DNA from: Planctomycetota bacterium
GTDB taxonomy: Bacteria; Planctomycetota; Planctomycetia; Gemmatales; Gemmataceae
DNA length: 62,946 bases
Assembly: GCA_021413735.1 (NCBI GenBank)
Contig: JAIOPV010000202.1
Coordinates: forward strand, 1 to 62,946
Reading direction: 5' to 3'
Part shown: one piece after another, positions 2,869 through 52,760 of the stretch
Numbering within the stretch: the first letter of the stretch is position 1
How the letters are laid out: each line of letters begins with the position of its first letter
Notes under the pieces: generated by a model
Told to the model about the DNA's origin: nothing
What the model saw: the letters and a program-made list of their open reading frames with translations, nothing else
Databases searched by the model: none
Position numbers and translations under genes: made by a program

Positions 2869-3004
2869 GGCTGCTTCCTCATCGCAGGGAATATTCCGCA
2901 CGTACACAGTTGTTCGCACACCGTAGCACGATGTTGAGCGACTAGCACGAGAGAATGGAGTGAAACTTGATTGGAGAGATGTGAAGTTGGTGCGGTCTGG
3001 GTCT

Positions 3005-3055
3005 TCGCCGCTTGCGGCGTAGCGCTCTGGTGGAGCGCTACGCCGCAAGCGGCGA
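3005..3055. repeat. Interspersed palindrome, family A (GCCGCTTGCGGC core)
   Basis: 23-base arms at 3005-3027 and 3033-3055 are perfect inverted copies with a 5-base loop. The same palindrome occurs at 21546-21601, 23851-23902 and, diverged, at 27576-27622. Here it follows the minus-strand gene ending at 3064, so it can act as its terminator, and it lies upstream of the YbjQ-repeat gene. Confidence 0.8.
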
Positions 3056-3305: not shown

Positions 3306-4781
3306 TCAGCGTGACTCGGTGAACGCCGCCACGCGAGCCGCCACGAGTTCGCCCTGTTCCGCGCAGTCGCCCATCGCGATCCCGTGATAAGCGTTGCCCG
3401 TCAGGAACAAGCCCGGATGCATTGCGACAAGAGCTTCGATTTGCGAAACGCGGTCGATGTGGCCGAGGTTGTACTGCGGGATCGCTCGCGGCCATCGCAC
3501 GATCTTGCGGAACACAGGTTCGCCACGAACACCCATCGCCAGTTTCATCTCGGCGTGAACGGCTTTCCCCAATGTGTCGTCGTCCCAGTCAGCGACCTCG
3601 GCACGGTTCACGCCACCGCACAAAGCTCGCCACAAGACGTACCCCGGCGGCGCACGATCCGGGAAGATCGCCGAACACCACTGTACGCCGAGCGCATCAC
3701 GTCGCGTGTTCTGCGGAGCAATGTAGCCGAAGCCGTCGGGCGTCCACGAACAATCGGTCTGTCGATATCCGAGCGCAACGACAGCGATGCGGTTGTACGC
3801 GATGCCAGCAGCAAGATCCGCGAGCTTCGCATCGAGATCGCCGAGGATCGCCGCCTGTTCGTATGCCGGACACGCCAGCACCACGGCATCAGCAGTGAGC
3901 GGTTCGGTGTCGGTGTCGATGAAGAACCCCTCCCCAACCCCTCCCCCAAGGGGAGAGGGGCTTAAATCTTGCTCCCCCTTCCTTTCCAGGGAAGGGGGTT
4001 GGGGGGTTAGGTTTCTTCCGCGGGCCCGTCGGACTGATTTCACACGCACGCCGGTTCGCACGCAATCGCCGACGCTTGCCAACAACCCATCGACCAGCAC
4101 TTGTAGCCCTTCACGGAACGACCACATTCGCATCGGTCCTGGCAACGGTTCGCCACGGCTCATCGCATCTTGCTTGCGTTTCTTCGCGGCTCGCATAAAC
4201 CCACGGATGATGCTGCCCGCTTCGCGTTCCATGAGCGGCAACCTGGGAAACGCAGCTGCGACGCTGAGCTTCGCCGGGTCACCTGCGTGGATGCCAGTTA
4301 CGAGCGCATCGGCGAAGATGTCCGCGGCTTCCTTCCCCGCACGACGGGTCACGAACTGCGAGATGGACTCCTCGGCGGACGCATCAACTCGCCGTTTCCG
4401 CCAGGGTTCCGTGAAGAGTTGCCATTTACCGCGAGGCGAAAGCAGACCCGACGTGAGCAGCCCGAACGGTCCTGATGGCATCTTGCGAAGTTTGCCGCGC
4501 AGGAAGAGGTAGCGGTTCTTACGGCTCCCTTCGCTCGCGGCAACGAGACGACCCGACAAGCCCAGGTCGCGAACGAGATTCGGCACGGACGGCGTGCGGT
4601 CGAGGAAGCCGTTGGGGCCACATTCGACGCGGAATCCATCGTGGTCTTCCGTGCGAATGTTGCCGCCCGCTCGGTCGCGCGGTTCGAGGACCGTGATCGA
4701 CACGGTTGGGCGGATCTGCTTCAAGCGGAAGGCAACCGATAGCCCCGTCAGGCCACCACCAACAATGACAACATTCGGCAT
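3306..4781 (-). CDS. hemY: Protoporphyrinogen oxidase (HemY/PPOX type) with in-frame repeat insert
   Basis: FAD-dependent oxidase that converts protoporphyrinogen IX (or coproporphyrinogen III in the coproporphyrin branch) to the porphyrin in heme synthesis. The 491-residue product opens with the dinucleotide-binding motif VVIVGGGLTGL, followed by the LEPRDRAGGNIRT loop, GPNGFLDR and a C-terminal FAD motif region, LTGNAYHGIAMGDC, as in HemY/PPOX. ATG 4781 is preceded by AGGGAAGGGA. Residues about 257-285 (NLTPQPPSLERKG ... PLGGGVGEG) are encoded by a palindromic repeat (3925-4011) and are not part of the PPOX fold. They sit between two beta strands of the FAD domain, before TADAVVLACPA. No other heme gene is adjacent. 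Confidence 0.85.
   Translation of the reverse strand: MPNVVIVGGGLTGLSVAFRLKQIRPTVSITVLEPRDRAGGNIRTEDHDGFRVECGPNGFLDRTPSVPNLVRDLGLSGRLVAASEGSRKNRYLFLRGKLRKMPSGPFGLLTSGLLSPRGKWQLFTEPWRKRRVDASAEESISQFVTRRAGKEAADIFADALVTGIHAGDPAKLSVAAAFPRLPLMEREAGSIIRGFMRAAKKRKQDAMSRGEPLPGPMRMWSFREGLQVLVDGLLASVGDCVRTGVRVKSVRRARGRNLTPQPPSLERKGEQDLSPSPLGGGVGEGFFIDTDTEPLTADAVVLACPAYEQAAILGDLDAKLADLAAGIAYNRIAVVALGYRQTDCSWTPDGFGYIAPQNTRRDALGVQWCSAIFPDRAPPGYVLWRALCGGVNRAEVADWDDDTLGKAVHAEMKLAMGVRGEPVFRKIVRWPRAIPQYNLGHIDRVSQIEALVAMHPGLFLTGNAYHGIAMGDCAEQGELVAARVAAFTESR
3925..4011. repeat. In-frame palindromic repeat inside hemY (family C)
   Basis: An ~87-base element built of two hairpins (CCCCTCCCCC/AAGGGGAGAGGGG and CTCCCCCTTCC/GGGAAGGGGG), with outer C- and G-tracts that can also pair. 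A closely similar copy lies at 11401-11490 inside another gene. Here the gene reads through the complementary strand without a stop and gains about 29 residues. Confidence 0.85.
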
Positions 4782-4898
4782 CAGTCCCTTCCCTGTGGAG
4801 AATCCTCTTAATGTCTTATCCGGGAACACCTAAGCACGAAGTCGAATTGCGTTCTACAATGGCCATAGCCCAGCCGTAGGTAGAATCCCGGAAACGAT

Positions 4899-8877: not shown

Positions 8878-8981
8878 TATTTCTTACGGACGAGAGAGAT
8901 GGTTCCGGAGCTGAAATGGGTCTTTCCGGGCCTGAAATGGATGGTTCCGGACGTGGGGTGGGGAAGTCGCCCGGAACCAAT
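8878..8981 (+). repeat. Interspersed repeat family D, copy 1
   Basis: Contains several TTCCGGA/TTCCGGG units, including GGTTCCGGACGTGGGGTGG at 8943-8961. Related copies occur inverted at 23147-23228 and in the same orientation at 55589-55650, all in intergenic DNA. The common order is TTTCTTCCGGACGA, then a GAAATGGATGGTTCCGGA unit in two of three copies, then GTGGGGTGGG and CCCGGAACC. Confidence 0.7.
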
Positions 8982-9001
8982 GGGGTGGCCGGGAACAGGG
9001 G

Positions 9002-9118
9002 AAGACAGAAATTCGGGCACGGGCAAGGGCACCTACAAAACCGGGGAAAGGAGAACGGTGGTTGCCTTTTCCCTCTTTGTCCGTGCCCGTGCCCTTGCCC
9101 GTGCCCGAATTTCGTCTT
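9002..9118. repeat. Long inverted repeat with GGGCAC/GTGCCC units
   Basis: The left arm 9002-9032 (AAGACAGAAATTCGGGCACG...) is repeated inverted at 9083-9118 (...GTGCCCGAATTTCGTCTT), with about 50 bases between. The arms contain short tandem GGGCAC/GGGCAA units. Only one copy is seen in this window. Confidence 0.7.
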
Positions 9119-9273
9119 TTGTCTTCCCCGCTTCCCCTCTGCTTGCCCTGGTGTCCGCGAACGGGAGTCCGTGGCACCCATCTTTCGCGTTTCTGCTCGC
9201 GCGAGTCTTTCGACACTACCCGAGATGGGGTATTCTGGACTCCCTGCCACCGTCCTCCCGTCGAGGGTTCTCC

Positions 9274-12141
9274 GTGTCGTTTTCGTCTCGACTCCTCGTC
9301 GTGTTTCTCCTCGGGTTCACAGGAATCGCTCCAGCCACCGCAGCGGAACCGGACTTCGTCCGCGATGTGCGACCGATCTTCGCGGCTCACTGCGTGAAGT
9401 GCCACGGTCCCGACAAACAACGCGGCGACCTCCGACTCGACCGCAAAGCCGACGCACTCAAAGGCGGCGATTCGGGTGCGGTGATCGTTCCTGGGAAACC
9501 CGCCGATAGCCTTCTGCTCAAGAAGGTGACGAGCAAGGCGCCCAGGGAACGGATGCCGCCGGCGGGCGATCTGCTCACAGCCGAGCAAATTCGCATGCTC
9601 ACGGCGTGGATCGAAGCCGGGGCGAAGTGGCCTGCCGACGCCGAGATCGCGGATTCGCACTGGTCGTTCCAACCGCTGAAGCGTCCCGCTGTGCCGGCAA
9701 TTCCCAATTCACAATCCGCATGCAATGACATCGACCGTTTCATCATCGCGAAGCTCAGTGACAAGGGGTTGTCACTATCTCGTGAAGCCGATCGCCGCAC
9801 GCTCATTCGGCGACTCAAGTACGACCTGCTCGGACTGCCACCAACACCAGAGGAAGTCGATGAGTTCGTGGCGGACAAGTCACCCGACGCTTACGAAAAG
9901 CTCGTGGAGAAGTATCTGGCATCGCAGCACTACGGGGAACGCTGGGCACGTCACTGGCTCGATGTGGTGCGGTTCGCCGAGAGCAACGGCTTCGAGACGA
10001 ATCAACCGCGACAGAATGCGTGGCCGTACCGCGATTGGGTCATCAAGAGCCTGAACGACGACAAGCCATACGATCGGTTCGTGCGCGAACAAATTGCTGG
10101 CGACCAACTCGGCGCGGACGCCGCGACCGGCTTCATCGTTGGCGGTGCGTGGGACGCTGTGAAAAGCCCCGACATCACGCTGACGGCGCAGCAGCGAGCC
10201 GATGAACTGCACGACATGGTCAGCACGACGGGTTCGGCGTTCCTCGGGCTGACGGTGGGTTGTGCCCGCTGTCACGCTCACAAGTTCGACCCGGTTCCGC
10301 AGCTTGATTACTACCGATTCAAGGCGGTGTTCTCGGGCGTGCAGCACGGCGACCGCCCGCTGCGAAACAGCGACACCGGAACTACGCTCGCCGAACGCCA
10401 GCAATTGCGTGACCGTCTCGCAATGCTCGAATCACAACTCGCGACGCTCGAACCGCTCGCTGATCCCACGGCAACCGATGCCCGCCGCGTTCCAGTCAAC
10501 GCGAAGCAAAACACCGAACGCTTCACACCGGCGAAAGCCCGCTTCGTGCGATTCGAGATCAGCGCAACGAACACGACAAACGAACCGTGCATCGACGAAC
10601 TGGAGGTCTTCACCGTTGGTCCGAAGTCCGTGAATGTTGCGACGACTCCGGGCACGAAGGTGCGTTCGAGCGGCGACTATCCCGGCGCGACGAACATTCA
10701 CCGGTTGGAGTTCATCAACGACGGGAAGTACGGCAACAGTCGCAGTTGGATCTCGAACACGAACGGCCGTGGCCGAGTGGAAATCGAACTGAAGGAAGTG
10801 GCCGAAATCGACCGCATCGTCTGGGCCCGCGACCGCGAAGAGAAGTATGTCGATCGCCTCGCGACTCGCTACCGCATCGAAGTTTCGCCAGACGGCGCGG
10901 CGTGGTCGGTGGTGGCAACGTCGAACGATCGCGTGGCGTTTGGCACTCCCATCGCGGGCAGAACCTCGACGGGTTTGTCGCTGAGCGAACGGCTTGCATG
11001 GCAAGTGCTGACGAAGCACGCCAGTGAGGTTCGCAAGCGGCTCGGCGTCGTTGAAAGCTCGCAGAACGTGTACGCGGGTCGGCTCACGTCACCCGAACCA
11101 ACCTATCGGTTGCACCGTGGCGATCCGCTTCAGAAGAAGGAGCTTGTTGGCCCCGGCGTGCTGAGCGACATCGGCCCGAAGCTGACGATTCCCGAGAACG
11201 CGACCGATCCACAGCGTCGGGAGGCGTTCGCGAAGTGGCTGACCGATCCTGCGAATCCGCTACCGGCTCGCGTGATCGTGAATCGACTGTGGCAGTACCA
11301 CTTTGGCACGGGCATCGTTGACACGCCCAGCGACTTCGGTCGCAATGGCGGCAAGCCGACACATCCGGAACTGCTCGATTGGCTGGCAAGCGAGCTCCAG
11401 AACCCCTCCCCCAACCCCCTCCCCCAAGGGGAGAGGGGGCTAAATCCAGCTCCCCCTTCCTTCGTAGGGAAGGGGGCTGGGGGGGTAGGTTCTTCGCAGC
11501 CTTGGTCGTTGAAGCATCTTCATCGGCACATGGTGCTGTCGGCGGCATATCGCCAATCGTCGGCGGTGAACGCAGATGGTCTCGCCAAGGATGCTCAATC
11601 GCGGTTGCTGTGGCGATATCCGCCGCGACGAATCGAAGCCGAGGCACTTCGCGATTCGATCCTGTCGATCACGGGAAAGCTCGATCTGCGAATGGGTGGC
11701 CCCGGCTTCGATCTGTTCCAGTCGAATGGCAACTACGTCAAGGTTTACACGCCGCGAACGGAGTTCGGGCCAACCGAGTTTCGCCGCATGATCTATCAGC
11801 AGAAGCCGCGAATGCAACTCGATGACACGTTTGGTGTGTTCGACTGCCCCGACGCGGGCCAGATCGCCCCACGGCGAAACGTCTCGACGACGCCATTGCA
11901 GGCATTGAACCTGCTGAACAGCACATTCGCGTTGCAGCAGGCCGGTTTCTTCGCGGAACGAGTGACGAAGGAAGCTGGCAGCGATGTGTCCGCACAGTTG
12001 AAGCGAGTGTTCGCGCTGACCTTCCAGCGAGTACCCACCGAGCGCGAACAGAACGCGGCCGAGAAGTTGGTGCGTGAACACGGACTCGCGGCGTTGTGCC
12101 GCGCCGTGCTGAACGCGAACGAATTCGTGTTCGTGGATTGA
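9274..12141 (+). CDS. PSCyt1-DUF1549-DUF1553 cytochrome protein with F5/8-type insert and in-frame repeat
   Basis: A 955-residue exported protein of the planctomycete cytochrome family, function unknown. Order: signal peptide (about 1-24, ending PATAA), PSCyt1 heme domain with HCVKCH and MPPAG, DUF1549 (residues about 135-345) with a second heme-like CARCHAHKFDP, a discoidin/F5-8 type C-like segment (about 410-560: FVRFEISATN..., YRIEVSPDGAAW), and DUF1553 to the C-terminus (NRLWQYHFGTGIV, RRIEAEALRDSIL, ALNLLNS). GTG 9274 is chosen because GAGGG precedes it and the signal peptide starts there. Residues about 710-739 come from a palindromic repeat inserted between HPELLDWLASELQ and WSLKHLHRH, a site where relatives normally have only a few residues. 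It forms a gene pair with the following DUF1501 gene, 20 bases away. Confidence 0.88.
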   Translation: MSFSSRLLVVFLLGFTGIAPATAAEPDFVRDVRPIFAAHCVKCHGPDKQRGDLRLDRKADALKGGDSGAVIVPGKPADSLLLKKVTSKAPRERMPPAGDLLTAEQIRMLTAWIEAGAKWPADAEIADSHWSFQPLKRPAVPAIPNSQSACNDIDRFIIAKLSDKGLSLSREADRRTLIRRLKYDLLGLPPTPEEVDEFVADKSPDAYEKLVEKYLASQHYGERWARHWLDVVRFAESNGFETNQPRQNAWPYRDWVIKSLNDDKPYDRFVREQIAGDQLGADAATGFIVGGAWDAVKSPDITLTAQQRADELHDMVSTTGSAFLGLTVGCARCHAHKFDPVPQLDYYRFKAVFSGVQHGDRPLRNSDTGTTLAERQQLRDRLAMLESQLATLEPLADPTATDARRVPVNAKQNTERFTPAKARFVRFEISATNTTNEPCIDELEVFTVGPKSVNVATTPGTKVRSSGDYPGATNIHRLEFINDGKYGNSRSWISNTNGRGRVEIELKEVAEIDRIVWARDREEKYVDRLATRYRIEVSPDGAAWSVVATSNDRVAFGTPIAGRTSTGLSLSERLAWQVLTKHASEVRKRLGVVESSQNVYAGRLTSPEPTYRLHRGDPLQKKELVGPGVLSDIGPKLTIPENATDPQRREAFAKWLTDPANPLPARVIVNRLWQYHFGTGIVDTPSDFGRNGGKPTHPELLDWLASELQNPSPNPLPQGERGLNPAPPSFVGKGAGGVGSSQPWSLKHLHRHMVLSAAYRQSSAVNADGLAKDAQSRLLWRYPPRRIEAEALRDSILSITGKLDLRMGGPGFDLFQSNGNYVKVYTPRTEFGPTEFRRMIYQQKPRMQLDDTFGVFDCPDAGQIAPRRNVSTTPLQALNLLNSTFALQQAGFFAERVTKEAGSDVSAQLKRVFALTFQRVPTEREQNAAEKLVREHGLAALCRAVLNANEFVFVD
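11401..11490. repeat. In-frame palindromic repeat inside the DUF1549/1553 gene (family C)
   Basis: An ~90-base element nearly matching that at 3925-4011 (CCCCTCCC..., CTCCCCCAAGGGGAGAGGGG, CTCCCCCTTCCTT, GGGAAGGGGG, GGGGGGTAGGTTCTT). Here the gene reads the strand opposite to the one read in hemY and again meets no stop, yielding NPSPNPLPQGERGLNP and then PPSFVGKGAGGVG. Confidence 0.85.
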
Positions 12142-17150: not shown

Positions 17151-20015
17151 ATGTCACGCCCCTTCGCCGTAGTGCTGGCCGTCCTTGCCATCCCGACAGG
17201 CCCATCCCGCGTCACTGCTGCCGACCTGACCCCGAAGGAAGTCGACTTCTTCGAGAAGAAGATTCGACCCATCCTCACCGAACACTGCTACTCATGCCAC
17301 TCTGCGGAAGCCGAGGCGAAGAAAAAGCTCAAGGGCGGGCTTTCGCTCGACACCCGCGACGCCGTTCGCAACGGCGGTGACAGCGGACCGTCACTCGTTG
17401 CCGGGAAGCCTGCCGAGAGTCTGCTTCTCAAGACGATGAAGTACGACGGCGACGTGAAGATGCCCCCGAAGGGTAAACTGCCCGATGCCGTGATCGCCGA
17501 CTTCGAAGCGTGGGTGAAGATGGGTGCCCCGGACCCGCGAACCGCTGGCGATCGCAAGAAGCAAGTCGGGCTGACCATTGAGGAAGGCAAGAAGTTCTGG
17601 GCGTATGTGCCGCGTGCCGAGCCGAACGTTCCCGCCTTGTTAGATGTAGCGTGGTCGGCTGGCGACATCGACCGCTTCGTGCTATCGCGGCTCGAAGCAA
17701 AAGGGCTGAAGCCGGCACCCGATGCGGACAAGGTTACGCTCATTCGGCGAGTCTACTTCGATCTGATCGGGCTGCCACCGACGCCGGAACAGATCGACGC
17801 CTTCGTGCAGTCCACCGACCCGAAGGCTTACGAAAAACTGGTCGATTCGCTGCTGGCGTCTCGCGGGTTCGGCGAACGCTGGGGCCGGCACTGGCTCGAC
17901 GTCGCCCGCTACGCCGAGTCGGTCACGCTCCGCGGCTTCATCTACAAGGACGCCTGGCGTTACCGCGATTACGTCATCGACAGCTTCAACACGGACGTGC
18001 CCTTCGATCGTTTCGTGCGAGAACAACTCGCGGGGGATCTGCTGCCGGCTGCCGACCACACGGCACGCAAACGTCAGCTGGTCGCCACGTCGTTCCTGGC
18101 GCTCGGCAACACGAACCTCGAGGAACAAGACAAGAAGCAGCTTCGCATGGATATGGTCGATGAGCAGCTCGATGTCGTCGCGAAGGGGTTCCTCGCTCAA
18201 ACCGTGACGTGTGCCCGCTGCCACGATCACAAGTTCGACCCGATTCCGACCAAGGATTATTACGCACTCGCGGGCATCTTCCGGAACGCGAAGTCTCTCG
18301 AACACTCGAACGTCTCGAAGTGGATCGAGGTTCCGCTGCCGGTCGAACCTGAGGCCGAAGCCGCGTTGAAGAAGCATAACGAAGCGGTGGCCGCGTTGCA
18401 GGCGAAGATCAAGGCTGCGAAAACCGTGGCCAGCGTGAAGCCCGTACCGAACAAGGGAGCGGTCGCGATCAAGGACGTGCCCGGAATCGCCGTCGATGAT
18501 GCCGCCGCGAAGAAGGTTGGCGAATGGAAGTTCTCGAAGTTCAACCCGACGTATGTCGGCGAGGGCTACGTTCACGACGACAACGCGGGCAAGGGCGAGA
18601 AGACGATCACGTTCGACCCGCACATCGAGAAGACTGGCAAGTATGAGGTGCTGTTCGCGTACAGCCCCGGCACCAACCGCGCCGACAACGTGCCCGTCAC
18701 CGTGTTCAGTGCTGAGGGCGAGAAGCAGATCACCATCGACATGCAGAAGACGCCGCCGATCGACGGGCACTTCGTGTCGCTCGGAACCTACCGCTTCGAG
18801 AAGGACGGGCAGAGTTTCATCATCGTTGCGAACGAGGGCACAAAGGGTCACGTTACGGCTGATGCGGTCACGTTCGTTCCGGTGACTGGCGACAAGAAAG
18901 AGACTGCGAAGACGCCTGGCGACAAGAAAGAAACCGCGAAGGCCGACAAGGCGGCACCGCCCGCGAAGGCTGAAGAATCTCCGGCACTGAAGGAACTGGA
19001 AGCAGAGTTGAAGAAGCTCGAAGCGAGTGGCCCGCAGCGACCGATGGCGATCAGCGTGGTCGAGGAAAAGGCGATTGAAGACGCGAAAATTCACGTTCGC
19101 GGAAGCGTTCACAATCTCGGAGCGTTGGCACCGCGTGGCGTGCTGCAAGTCGCGACCATCGGATCGACCCCGGTATTCCCGAAGGATGCGAGCGGTCGCA
19201 AGGAACTCGCGGAATGGATTTCGTCGGCTGAGAATCCGCTGACGGCACGAGTGTATGCGAACCGAACGTGGCACTGGCTATTCGGCAGCGGCATCGTTCG
19301 CACGGTCGACAACTTCGGCACGACGGGCGAGAAGCCTTCGAACCCCGAGTTGCTTGAGTATCTCGCGTCGCGGTTCGTGAAGGACGGTTGGAGCACGAAG
19401 AAGCTCGTTCGCGAGATCGTGTTGAGCCGCACGTATCGCCAATCGTCGGTCGGCGTTGCCGAGACGGTCGCAGCCGACGCGGACAACTTGCTCTTCGGGC
19501 GAGCGAATCGTCGTCGTCTCGAAGCGGAGTGCATCCGCGACGCGATGGTTTCCGTGACAGGCAAGCTGACCGAGCACACCGGCGGCCCGACGTTTCCGAT
19601 GACCACCGCGGCCGACTACTCGTTCAAGTCGAACCTGGATGTGCGGAGCGTGTACTTGCCGGCGTTCCGCAACAGCATCCCGGAAATCCTCGAAGTGTTC
19701 GACATGGCCGACACGAGTATGGTCACCGGCAAGCGAAACGCGAGTACGGTGGCACCGCAGGCGTTGTTCTTGCTGAACAACCCGTGGGTAAACGAGCAGG
19801 CCAAGAACACCGCAACGAAGTTGCTTGCCATGAAGATCGACGATGACGCTCGATTGACCCGTGCGTATCGCGAGATTCTCGGCCGCGAGCCGACCATGGG
19901 TGAGCGTGCCGTGGCGACGAAGTATCTGAAGGCGAACGTGGCGAATCCGTCGGCCGCGTGGGCGGGCGTGGTTCACGCGCTGTTCGCGTCGGTGGACTTC
20001 CGGTTCACGAACTGA
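17151..20015 (+). CDS. PSCyt1-DUF1549-DUF1553 cytochrome protein with golvesin-like insert
   Basis: A 954-residue exported protein built like the one at 9274. Order: signal peptide (MSRPFAVVLAVLAIP...VTAAD), PSCyt1 with HCYSCH and MPPKGKLP, DUF1549 (about 165-375) with CARCHDHKFDP, then a golvesin/xanthan-lyase-like beta domain (about 455-580: WKFSKFNPTYVGEGYVHDD ... DGHFVSLGTYRF), a charged linker with two DKKETAK units, a coiled-coil-like helix, and DUF1553 (NRTWHWLFGSGIV, RRRLEAECIRDAM, QALFLLNNPW). The inserted domain differs from the discoidin-like one in the paralogue. ATG 17151 begins the signal peptide. Paired with the DUF1501 gene 110 bases downstream. Confidence 0.88.
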   Translation: MSRPFAVVLAVLAIPTGPSRVTAADLTPKEVDFFEKKIRPILTEHCYSCHSAEAEAKKKLKGGLSLDTRDAVRNGGDSGPSLVAGKPAESLLLKTMKYDGDVKMPPKGKLPDAVIADFEAWVKMGAPDPRTAGDRKKQVGLTIEEGKKFWAYVPRAEPNVPALLDVAWSAGDIDRFVLSRLEAKGLKPAPDADKVTLIRRVYFDLIGLPPTPEQIDAFVQSTDPKAYEKLVDSLLASRGFGERWGRHWLDVARYAESVTLRGFIYKDAWRYRDYVIDSFNTDVPFDRFVREQLAGDLLPAADHTARKRQLVATSFLALGNTNLEEQDKKQLRMDMVDEQLDVVAKGFLAQTVTCARCHDHKFDPIPTKDYYALAGIFRNAKSLEHSNVSKWIEVPLPVEPEAEAALKKHNEAVAALQAKIKAAKTVASVKPVPNKGAVAIKDVPGIAVDDAAAKKVGEWKFSKFNPTYVGEGYVHDDNAGKGEKTITFDPHIEKTGKYEVLFAYSPGTNRADNVPVTVFSAEGEKQITIDMQKTPPIDGHFVSLGTYRFEKDGQSFIIVANEGTKGHVTADAVTFVPVTGDKKETAKTPGDKKETAKADKAAPPAKAEESPALKELEAELKKLEASGPQRPMAISVVEEKAIEDAKIHVRGSVHNLGALAPRGVLQVATIGSTPVFPKDASGRKELAEWISSAENPLTARVYANRTWHWLFGSGIVRTVDNFGTTGEKPSNPELLEYLASRFVKDGWSTKKLVREIVLSRTYRQSSVGVAETVAADADNLLFGRANRRRLEAECIRDAMVSVTGKLTEHTGGPTFPMTTAADYSFKSNLDVRSVYLPAFRNSIPEILEVFDMADTSMVTGKRNASTVAPQALFLLNNPWVNEQAKNTATKLLAMKIDDDARLTRAYREILGREPTMGERAVATKYLKANVANPSAAWAGVVHALFASVDFRFTN

Positions 20016-20104
20016 TTGAGCGTCGAGCCGTCAGGCCGACGGTTGTTGCTCTAATTGAAACTGGTTTGACTTCGCACCGTCGGGCTAACGCCCCGACGCT
20101 CACA
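20016..20104. repeat. Interspersed palindrome, family B
   Basis: GAGCGTCG...CCGACGGT and ACCGTCGG...CGACGCTC are inverted arms separated by about 30 bases. Related copies are at 24687-24776 and 52689-52760. It lies between the paired genes at 17151 and 20126 and could partly terminate or protect the transcript. Confidence 0.7.
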
Positions 20105-20125
20105 AACACCTGATTCGGAACACCA

Positions 20126-21541
20126 ATGCTGCATACCCTCTCTCGACGCGAATGGCTCGCTCGCACTGGCTGCGGGTTCGGCGGACTCGCGTTCGCCGGG
20201 CTTGCGAACGCACACGCTGCCAGCACCAACCCGCTCGACCCGAAGCCGACGCACTTCCCCGCGAAGGCCAAGCGAATCATCTTCCTGTTCATGCAGGGCG
20301 GCGTCAGCCACGTCGATTCCTACGACAACAAGCCGCGTCTCACCAAAGACGACGGCAAGCAGTTCGCCTTCGACGACGCCCGCGTGATCGCCAATACCGG
20401 TCAACGGGGCAGCTCGCAGCGAGTCATGAAGCCGCTGTGGAAGTTCGCTCAGCACGGCAAGTCGGGCATGTGGGCGTCGGACCTGTTCCCGCAGGTCGCG
20501 AAGCACGTCGACGAGTTGTGCTTCATCAAGTCGATGCACACGGAGGGGGTCGCACACGGCCCGGCGACGCTGTTCCTCCACTGCGGCAGCACGAACTTCG
20601 TTCGCCCCAGCTTCGGCTCGTGGGCACTGTACGGACTTGGCACGGAGAACCAGAACTTACCCGGCTTCGTGTCGATTGCTCCCTCGTCGGGCAACGGCGG
20701 TCCCCGCAACTATGGCAACGCCTTCCTGCCGGCCGTTTATCAGGGAACGGCTCTGGGTCGTGCGGGTCGGCCTGCCAGCGAATCGACCATCCGCAACCTG
20801 TCGCCGACGCTGTCCGCATCCGAAGCGAAGGGACAGTTCGAGCTGCTGCGGGAATTGAACGCGGAGCAGTTGAAGCGGAACCCAGGCGATACGGAGTTGG
20901 AAGCGGTCGCGAACTCCTACGAACTCGCGGGCCGCATGCAGTTGAACGCCCCTGACGTGCTCGATCTGTCGAAGGAATCGGCCGAGACCAAGAAGGCTTA
21001 CGGCATCGGCGAGAAGGCGACCGACACGTTCGGTCAGCAGTGCCTCATGGCCCGGCGACTGTCGGAGCAGGGCGTGCGGTTCATTCAGGTGACCTACGGC
21101 GACAGTTCCGCGAATCCGGCGTGGGATCAGCACTCGAACATGCCGAAGCACGGCGACCACGCCTTCGCGGTGGATAAGCCGATCGCGGGGCTGCTCGAAG
21201 ACCTGAAGAAACGCGACTTGCTGAAGGACACGATCGTGTGGTGGGGTGGCGAGTTCGGCCGCACGCCATACGCACAGGGGAACGGCACCGGTCGCGATCA
21301 CAACCCGCTCGGGTTCACGACGTGGGTCGCGGGCGGCGGCTTCAAGGCGGGGTTCTCACACGGAGCGACCGACGAGTTCGGAGCGCTCGCGGTCGAGGAC
21401 AAGGTTCACATGCACGACCTGCACGCGACTCTGCTGCACCAGATGGGTCTCGATCACGAGAAGCTGACGTTCGAGTACGCGGGCCGACCGTTCCGGCTCA
21501 CCGATGTGCACGGGCATGTTGTGAAGGAAGTGATTGCGTAA
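20126..21541 (+). CDS. DUF1501 family protein
   Basis: A 471-residue Tat-type exported DUF1501 protein: leader LSRREWLARTGCGFGGLAFAGLANAHA (RR-E-W-L), then KRIIFLFMQGGVSHVDSYDNKP, MHTEGVAHGPATLFLH, LMARRLSEQGVRFIQVTYGD, IVWWGGEFGRTPYAQG, GRDHNPLGFTTW and the RLTDVHGHVVKEV tail. The pattern, including a histidine after the GRD and a conserved tail, agrees with the paralogues at 12162 and 22988. The start ATG 20126 is at the Tat leader. Its partner is the DUF1549/1553 gene upstream. It converges with another DUF1501 gene across a family A palindrome. Confidence 0.88.
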   Translation: MLHTLSRREWLARTGCGFGGLAFAGLANAHAASTNPLDPKPTHFPAKAKRIIFLFMQGGVSHVDSYDNKPRLTKDDGKQFAFDDARVIANTGQRGSSQRVMKPLWKFAQHGKSGMWASDLFPQVAKHVDELCFIKSMHTEGVAHGPATLFLHCGSTNFVRPSFGSWALYGLGTENQNLPGFVSIAPSSGNGGPRNYGNAFLPAVYQGTALGRAGRPASESTIRNLSPTLSASEAKGQFELLRELNAEQLKRNPGDTELEAVANSYELAGRMQLNAPDVLDLSKESAETKKAYGIGEKATDTFGQQCLMARRLSEQGVRFIQVTYGDSSANPAWDQHSNMPKHGDHAFAVDKPIAGLLEDLKKRDLLKDTIVWWGGEFGRTPYAQGNGTGRDHNPLGFTTWVAGGGFKAGFSHGATDEFGALAVEDKVHMHDLHATLLHQMGLDHEKLTFEYAGRPFRLTDVHGHVVKEVIA

Positions 21542-21545
21542 ATGA

Positions 21546-21601
21546 TTTTGCCGCTTGCGGCGTAGCGCTCGCTCAAGAGCGCTACGCCGCAAGCGGCAAA
21601 A
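21546..21601. terminator. Family A palindrome at convergent gene ends
   Basis: 25-base perfect arms (21546-21570 and 21577-21601, TTTTGCCGCTTGCGGCGTAG...) with a 6-base loop. T- and A-runs on both outer sides make it look like an intrinsic terminator in both directions, and it lies between stops at 21541 and 21615. Confidence 0.8.
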
Positions 21602-21614
21602 CCAAACACCAATC

Positions 21615-23828: not shown

Positions 23829-23850
23829 GGTGAAGTCTTTGGTCCGCTGG

Positions 23851-23902
23851 TTTTGCCGCTTGCGGCGTAGCGCTCACGAGCGCTACGCCGCAAGCGGCAA
23901 AA
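23851..23902. repeat. Family A palindrome upstream of the kinase-fragment gene
   Basis: 25-base perfect arms (23851-23875, 23878-23902) with a 2-base loop. Unlike the other copies it sits between two divergent starts (23828 and 24072), that is, in a promoter or leader region. Confidence 0.8.
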
Positions 23903-24686: not shown

Positions 24687-24776
24687 TTGTGAGCGTCGAG
24701 GCGTAAGCCCGACGGTGCTGCCCGGAACCCGTTCAATCGCAAACTCACCGTCGGCCTAACGGCCCGACGCTCACAA
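24687..24776. repeat. Family B palindrome between sigma factor and kinase genes
   Basis: TTGTGAGCGTCGAGGCGTAA... and ...CCTAACGGCCCGACGCTCAC are inverted arms with about 30 bases between. It lies between two co-directional genes. Confidence 0.75.
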
Positions 24777-27555: not shown

Positions 27556-27575
27556 GTATTTGGGGTTTCCTTTTT

Positions 27576-27622
27576 GCCGCTTGCGGCGTTGCACAAAGTG
27601 GGAGTGCAACGCCGCAAGCGGC
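27576..27622. terminator. Family A-related palindrome after the ACT-like gene
   Basis: 19-base arms (GCCGCTTGCGGCGTTGCAC at 27576-27594 and its complement at 27604-27622) with T-run before and weak T-run after. The outer half is the family A core, the inner half differs, indicating a diverged or recombined copy. Confidence 0.7.
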
Positions 27623-27739
27623 GAATTCTTTTGGGTCTTCGCTACCTCCGTCAGATGTGAGGGTTAAGTGTCATAGAGGTGCCCGATAACGGCTTCTCAA
27701 CCTCTCAACTTCAAAACTCATAACTCGCGGAGAAATCAG

Positions 27740-52684: not shown

Positions 52685-52688
52685 ACTT

Positions 52689-52760
52689 GTGAGCGTCGGG
52701 GCGTAAGCCCGACGGTGCCATTCGCACTTCACCGTCGGGCTTACGCCCCCCGACGCTCAC
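52689..52760. repeat. Family B palindrome after the TPR gene
   Basis: Arms GTGAGCGTCGGGGCGTAAGC... (52689-52717) and CACCGTCGGGCTTACGCC... (52730-52760) are inverted copies with a 12-base spacer, close to perfect. It lies just after the stop at 52684, so it may also terminate the TPR gene. Confidence 0.8.

Follow-up and report, generated by a model that had tools for sequence, protein, structure and literature searches.

An in-frame two-hairpin palindromic repeat in hemY and in many other genes of a Gemmataceae planctomycete

The protoporphyrinogen oxidase gene (hemY) of this Gemmataceae planctomycete contains an in-frame palindromic insert. Analysis of the host genome showed that this insert is one copy of a repeat that is read in frame in many unrelated genes, is missing from relatives, and occupies the same loops in two species. 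The insert is very probably one copy of a mobile REP/MITE-type palindrome that is non-autonomous, can land inside genes, and persists in tolerant loops, that of HemY included. Transposition is the likely route of arrival. The insert peptide would be translated with its carrier proteins, which presumably retain their activity, and the loops that hold it are probably exposed.

The hemY element and its absence from HemY orthologues

The features below are given in positions of the window, which is the whole 62,946-nt stretch of DNA that was analyzed.

3306-4784, minus strand: hemY (protoporphyrinogen oxidase, 492 aa) with in-frame insert, from its ORF and profile matches
3921-4017, plus strand: palindromic element, two hairpins enclosed by a short outer stem; about 29 HemY residues on the minus strand
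3938-3960, plus strand: hairpin 1, CCCCTCCCCC..GGGGAGAGGGG
3961-3973, plus strand: inter-hairpin spacer, one base longer than the commonest spacer
3974-3998, plus strand: hairpin 2, CCCCCTTCCTT..AGGGAAGGGGG
3999-4013, plus strand: 3′ tail, TTGGGGGGTTAGGTT; its G-tract forms pairs with the C-tracts of the 5′ side
8899-12141, plus strand: ORF of a PSCyt1/PSCyt2/PSD1 (DUF1549/DUF1553) protein with a second insert, from Pfam
11399-11495, plus strand: second element copy, in frame (NPSPNPLPQGERGLNPAPPSFVGKGAGGVGSS) following LLDWLASELQ

The original prediction of an ~87-base, two-hairpin element inside hemY was borne out, with the element proving slightly longer: its body spans 3926-4012, and the unit including its ends spans 3921-4017. 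The predicted gain of about 29 residues without a stop or frameshift also held, as the ORF begins with an ATG at 4784, ends with a stop at 3306-3308, and is stop-free through the element, with NLTPQPPSLERKGEQDLSPSPLGGGVGEGFF beginning at HemY residue 258. The insert had been placed between two recognized segments of the FAD domain, and both reference matches indeed came in two stretches. The TIGR00562 (protoporphyrinogen oxidase) match fell into two stretches, the best covering residues 4-253, and the solved PPOX structure 2IVD aligned to residues 4-256 and 296-487.

Folding alone was modest evidence for the structure (z = -1.9, -1.4, and -3.3). The named structure had 98.1% of its cells paired, compared to 53 to 79% when it was slid along the sequence. 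Most of its pairs hardly vary among copies; a change on both sides was seen at just one apex pair, where 5 of 31 copies have U-A in place of C-G, and further pair types were fewer than in shuffles. Terminal inverted repeats, a feature expected of a MITE, are present as an outer stem of 6 pairs (helix 1) that is short and has 97.8% of its cells paired.

The orthologues of HemY were drawn from a sample of 41 genomes, 40 of which gave a HemY match (39 besides the host's own). The alignment took in 29 of these 39, namely those whose loci were returned, and the insert was absent from all 29. Sharing of the 29 residues by orthologues from unrelated planctomycetes, which had been named as what would refute the original prediction, was thus seen in none of those aligned. 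The insert lies between VKSVRR and ADAVVLACP, in a segment of variable length that is occupied in two distant orthologues by longer, unrelated sequence. The segment is called a loop here because its length varies among orthologues; a single-sequence AlphaFold model of HemY reached a mean pLDDT of 33 and was discarded.

Copies, frames, and lengths in the host genome

A near-identical element had also been claimed for a gene on the other strand, and this second copy was found in frame in the plus-strand DUF1549/DUF1553 gene listed above. Across the whole host genome (G000, 9.8 Mb), the repeat occurs far beyond chance. BLAST gave at least 40 places, the core pattern gave 53 compared to 0 for its reversed control, and the two combined with a covariance model gave at least 67 non-redundant loci, a lower bound because 150 of 2,124 first-look candidates were scored by the model. 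Thirty-seven of the 67 copies were called in frame within coding ORFs. For this call, each of the two flanks had to have an open frame of 40 codons or more and to score as coding by codon bias (180-bp flanks; codon table trained on the element loci themselves). Most of the remaining 30 copies look intergenic by the ends of their flanking ORFs, which was the sole basis of judgment for 25 of them. The other five were judged by Pfam, and none of these five breaks a gene, all lying between different or complete genes. Three non-frame copies are at contig ends (L137, L143, and L154).

The in-frame carriers are diverse. By Pfam, they include GidA/MnmG, a PP-loop protein (which we take to be TilS-like), MutL, a polyprenyl synthetase, a flavoprotein, an E1-E2 ATPase, SNF2 and AAA helicases, glycosyltransferases, an exosortase, a sulfatase, a chalcone-synthase-like enzyme, and six DUF1553 proteins; no Pfam match was obtained for 3 of the 37 (L096, L122, and L152). 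In the six DUF1553 paralogues (L097, L102, L115, L127, L129, and L141), the element is at the same place, after LLDxLAxEF/L. A PurA-family carrier was considered as an argument from essentiality and dropped, as its close relatives were found only in G008, a relative described below.

The consensus is stop-free in four of its six frames, two on the plus strand and two on the minus strand. When labeled by motif matches, 16 of the 37 in-frame copies used frame A (NPSPTPPPRGEGL..PPSFLGKGVGGLG), 11 used frame B (EEPNPPTPFPKKEGG..SPSPLGGGVGEG), and 8 used frame C (NLTPQPPSLRRKGE..LPLGEGLGRG). The HemY copy is a C-to-B hybrid, and one further copy has another build. Frame D (EEPLPNPSPKGRGAKSGSPFLLREGGWGVRFF), which encodes a hydrophobic, tryptophan-containing peptide, was used by none of the 37, though it is stop-free in 22 of 28 canonical copies (0 of 36 given equal chances, p ~5e-5). 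This avoidance may be an insertion-phase preference.

With four of the six consensus frames free of stops, an open frame by itself says little about function, and the carrier genes might instead be dying, with HemY inactivated by its insert and its frame open by chance. This reading is hard to credit, since hemY is the single match in its own genome, both halves of HemY keep their family scores and coding bias, and the same pattern recurs in 37 genes. HemY with its insert most likely still works.

The element might also be removed from the message by splicing or skipped by the ribosome, which would leave a protein without the insert. Mitochondrial byp elements are a precedent for ribosome bypassing, and known bypassed elements also have stable hairpins inside an ORF. 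However, 37 copies keep the gene frame stop-free (which is partly a selection criterion), and one stop-free frame is avoided. Moreover, a removed element could sit out of frame, whereas the five non-frame copies tested all leave genes uninterrupted. Removal or bypass is thus very improbable.

The dominant body lengths are 86, 89, and 98 nt, which differ by multiples of three. They are the same inside genes and between them, so the coding-compatible length belongs to the element itself. Among the 46 of 67 copies measured, the body length was 2 mod 3 in 23 of 26 in-frame copies and in 15 of 20 others (p = 0.27). As the two groups are alike, length gives no evidence of selection within genes. The three in-frame exceptions (HemY, L093, and L116) each change frame inside the element.

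Shared loops and probable movement among relatives

The nearest sampled relative is G008, whose HemY is 87% identical to that of the host, and the core pattern had no match in its genome. It was searched with the joined flanks of 36 sites, and the genes at 25 of these plus HemY were compared as proteins. Twenty-five of the 26 G008 genes continue without the element, with identities above 80% in 23 of the 25 and of 68 to 75% in L125 and L096; the exception, L118, sits just upstream of a start codon. The absence was read from protein alignments because nucleotide alignments were messy at the junctions.

Other repeat-like sequence was seen in frame in some of the same loops of G008. The sites L172, L165, and L183 include an GCCGCTTGCGGC palindrome in the PP-loop gene, REGEAPAEPKP, which we take to be a repeat, and a GAGTCAGGAGTC run in frame. 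The loop of the L150 helicase holds an GAGTCAGGAGTCGGGAGTC run that looks repeat-derived.

A second genome of the host's genus, G007, is a single 10.1-Mb contig with 70 core copies. Fifty-eight regions, covering the 64 core matches listed of the 70, were fetched, and 29 of the 58 loci were in frame, or 25 under stricter limits. A sequencing or annotation artefact had been named as what might undo the original prediction. An assembly artefact is unlikely because the 37 of 67 host copies, on many contigs, and the 25 to 29 of 58 loci in the one-contig G007 behave alike. Among the 25 G007 carriers, L334 alone opens in frame D and then switches to frame A. In some G007 carriers (L302, L322, L331, L341, and L346), a further C-rich repeat lies beside the element (peptides like PSPLPEGKGE and FPSGRGDGGVG); one loop can therefore hold several repeat-derived peptides.

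G000 and G007 have the element in eight of the same loops. BLAST between carriers identified six orthologous pairs in which the element occupies the same position (L111-L347, L129-L334, L132-L329, L139-L330, L148-L316, and L152-L301); the remaining two pairs were recognized by eye and then aligned (L150-L331 and L091-L317). The number of shared genes expected by chance is 0.19 (37 and 25 carriers, with 5,000 genes assumed). In four of the eight loops (L139, L148, L150, and L091), the element is in the opposite orientation and a different frame, which suggests repeated insertion into permissive loops. The other four agree in orientation and frame.

Probable movement was also seen between close relatives. 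When four sites of G007 were compared with G009, one was cleanly empty: a 105-bp, 35-codon insert in G007 L299, a gene that is presumably ParA-like, is absent from the 96%-identical G009 (L394), and no clear target-site duplication was found there. Two other sites retain a shorter remnant of a repeat in G009, and the fourth has repeats in both genomes.

The four same-orientation loops could reflect common descent, and G000 and G007 belong to one genus. Nevertheless, it is unlikely that the shared-loop repeats as a whole were inherited once from a common ancestor and then lost in G008. First, the other four loops differ in orientation and frame, though in-place inversion may explain these. Second, the core is absent from G008, whose HemY is closer to that of G000, and several of the same loops hold other sequence there. 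Third, one site is polymorphic between the 96%-identical genomes.

The sharing of loops by two species and the avoidance of a stop-free frame would also fit inserts that are useful additions, for instance, disordered linkers under positive selection. However, the carriers are many and unrelated, presence among species is patchy, and all 29 aligned HemY orthologues do without the insert; such a benefit seems quite improbable.

As a mobile repeat, the element, two hairpins closed by short C-tract/G-tract arms, would land both within and between genes. A landing in a gene could add a Pro/Gly/Lys/Glu-rich peptide of ~29 to 33 residues and leave the gene readable, because the common lengths differ by multiples of three and four frames are stop-free. 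Selection would then retain the copies in loops that accept such a soluble peptide, and HemY would carry its insert in the length-variable segment before the conserved ADAVVLACP stretch. A further possibility, offered with somewhat less than even confidence, is that a common set of permissive loops is filled independently by different palindromic families in different species, and that this repeat is suited to translated genes by its length steps of three, its four stop-free frames, and its unused hydrophobic Trp frame. If this is true, the insertions would chart naturally the sites at which proteins can take up an extra 30 residues.

Distribution and relation to known repeats

The core was present in 12 of the 19 sampled genomes of the genus (0 to 86 copies across the 19) and in none of the 22 sampled genomes outside it. 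A strict pattern matched only the host's own genome among 392 planctomycete genomes, a sample in which the host is the sole member of its order, and a plasmid tblastn search with the frame-A peptide gave three weak Rhizobium matches (E 0.4 to 0.7). A cross-phylum scan of named genomes with the hairpin 2 portion of the element found at least 95 stretches. Among the 80 loci listed, the hosts were mainly Gemmataceae, the others being a Singulisphaera MAG, Nostoc, Amazonocrinis, Anaerolineae, and another Chloroflexi MAG; the full two-hairpin unit was recognizable in one Nostoc and several Chloroflexota genomes. Fifteen of the named genomes carry 1 to 128 core matches. With 10 matches at locus ends dropped, L229 counted twice, and a score limit above that used for G000, 1 of 52 scored copies was in frame in the MAG palsa_1347, compared to 13 of 34 in the other named genomes. 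The in-gene habit is therefore not fixed.

Two side observations were made in the named genomes. In the Singulisphaera MAG, the copies at L229 and L254 each consist of a pair of hairpin-2 units inverted relative to one another; hairpin 2 can thus behave like a REP by itself. In Anaerolineae MO66, a Chloroflexota MAG, the element at L271 is in frame just before VGFDAIVGNPPYIR, presumably a DNA methyltransferase motif.

An association with RAYT (Y1) transposases was considered and rejected. Y1_Tnp (PF01797) was searched over the 41 genomes, and its counts did not follow core copies in the 19 genomes of the genus (rho -0.06); G007, with its 70 core copies, gave no Y1_Tnp match. A past or very divergent RAYT may have been involved.

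Three known systems resemble the repeat. First, Rickettsia palindromic elements (RPE) are palindromic repeats of ~105 to 150 bp that lie in frame in unrelated conserved genes as well as between genes, and the passages cited describe them and the Wolbachia palindromic elements from Rickettsia and Wolbachia (PMC10969869, PMC2229807); one RPE-type carrier protein, gmk, is reported to be still active (PMC2229807). Like these elements, as they are portrayed there, the present repeat is read in frame in numerous unrelated conserved genes whose orthologues lack it. Unlike them, it is found mainly in Gemmataceae and also in one Nostoc and in Chloroflexota. The original prediction saw here the RPE phenomenon in a planctomycete. 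The behavior agrees, with 37 of 67 copies in frame and the element absent in 25 of 26 G008 and 29 of 29 HemY comparisons, which supports RPE as a fair analogy of behavior. The same sequence family is not claimed: host range and end motif differ, a distinction drawn from the cited descriptions of RPE rather than from their sequences.

Second, intragenic REPs of the GTAG/CGTC superfamilies are small hairpins, often dimers, that lie in ORFs and encode 20 to 30 residues. According to the passages cited, most are in O. terrae and R. conorii, two Xanthomonas species have REPs in recB at about the same site, neutral insertion in loops has been suggested, and such REPs are reported from Planctomycetes, with further untagged families expected (PMC3733652). 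Among the 52 copies measured here, the end motif GTTAGG was found in 49, GTAG near the 3′ end in 2, and CGTC near an end in 0. Compared to the REPs described there, the present repeat thus is without the tag, is a two-hairpin unit of steady length, and has several loops common to two species.

Third, bacterial MITEs with translated ORFs, such as ERIC/RU and the 107-bp Correia element, have been reported in in-frame fusions (PMC2229807). The present repeat is likewise short, non-autonomous, and fused in frame; unlike the MITEs in that account, it has no clear target duplication, and no parent transposon was found in a search that covered Y1_Tnp. Judging from the passages cited, the phenomenon has precedents and is not itself new. 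No paper was found in literature searches for the element peptides or for palindromes of Gemmata or planctomycetes, and Gemmata was unmentioned among the matches listed in a broader search; within the literature searched, both the repeat family and its shared loops appear to be new.

The idea of protein-coding palindromes, which comes from Rickettsia, Wolbachia, and a scatter of REP cases, would with this repeat reach the large genomes of planctomycetes. In one of these, over half of the detected copies are in frame, and the same loops are used across species. It offers a natural experiment on the insertion tolerance of proteins and is possibly a selfish DNA element shaped by translation. For annotation, inserts such as PPSFLGKGVGGLG or PPTPFPKKEGG should be taken as repeat-derived and not as domains.

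Two other palindromic families are present in the window, and none of their tested copies lies in an open coding frame. One (GCCGCTTGCGGCGTAGCGCTC..) is at 3004-3055, 21540-21604, 23848-23902, and 27573-27624, and the other (GTGAGCGTCGGGGCGTAAGCCCGACGGTGC) is at 20014-20105, 24687-24776, and 52687-52760.
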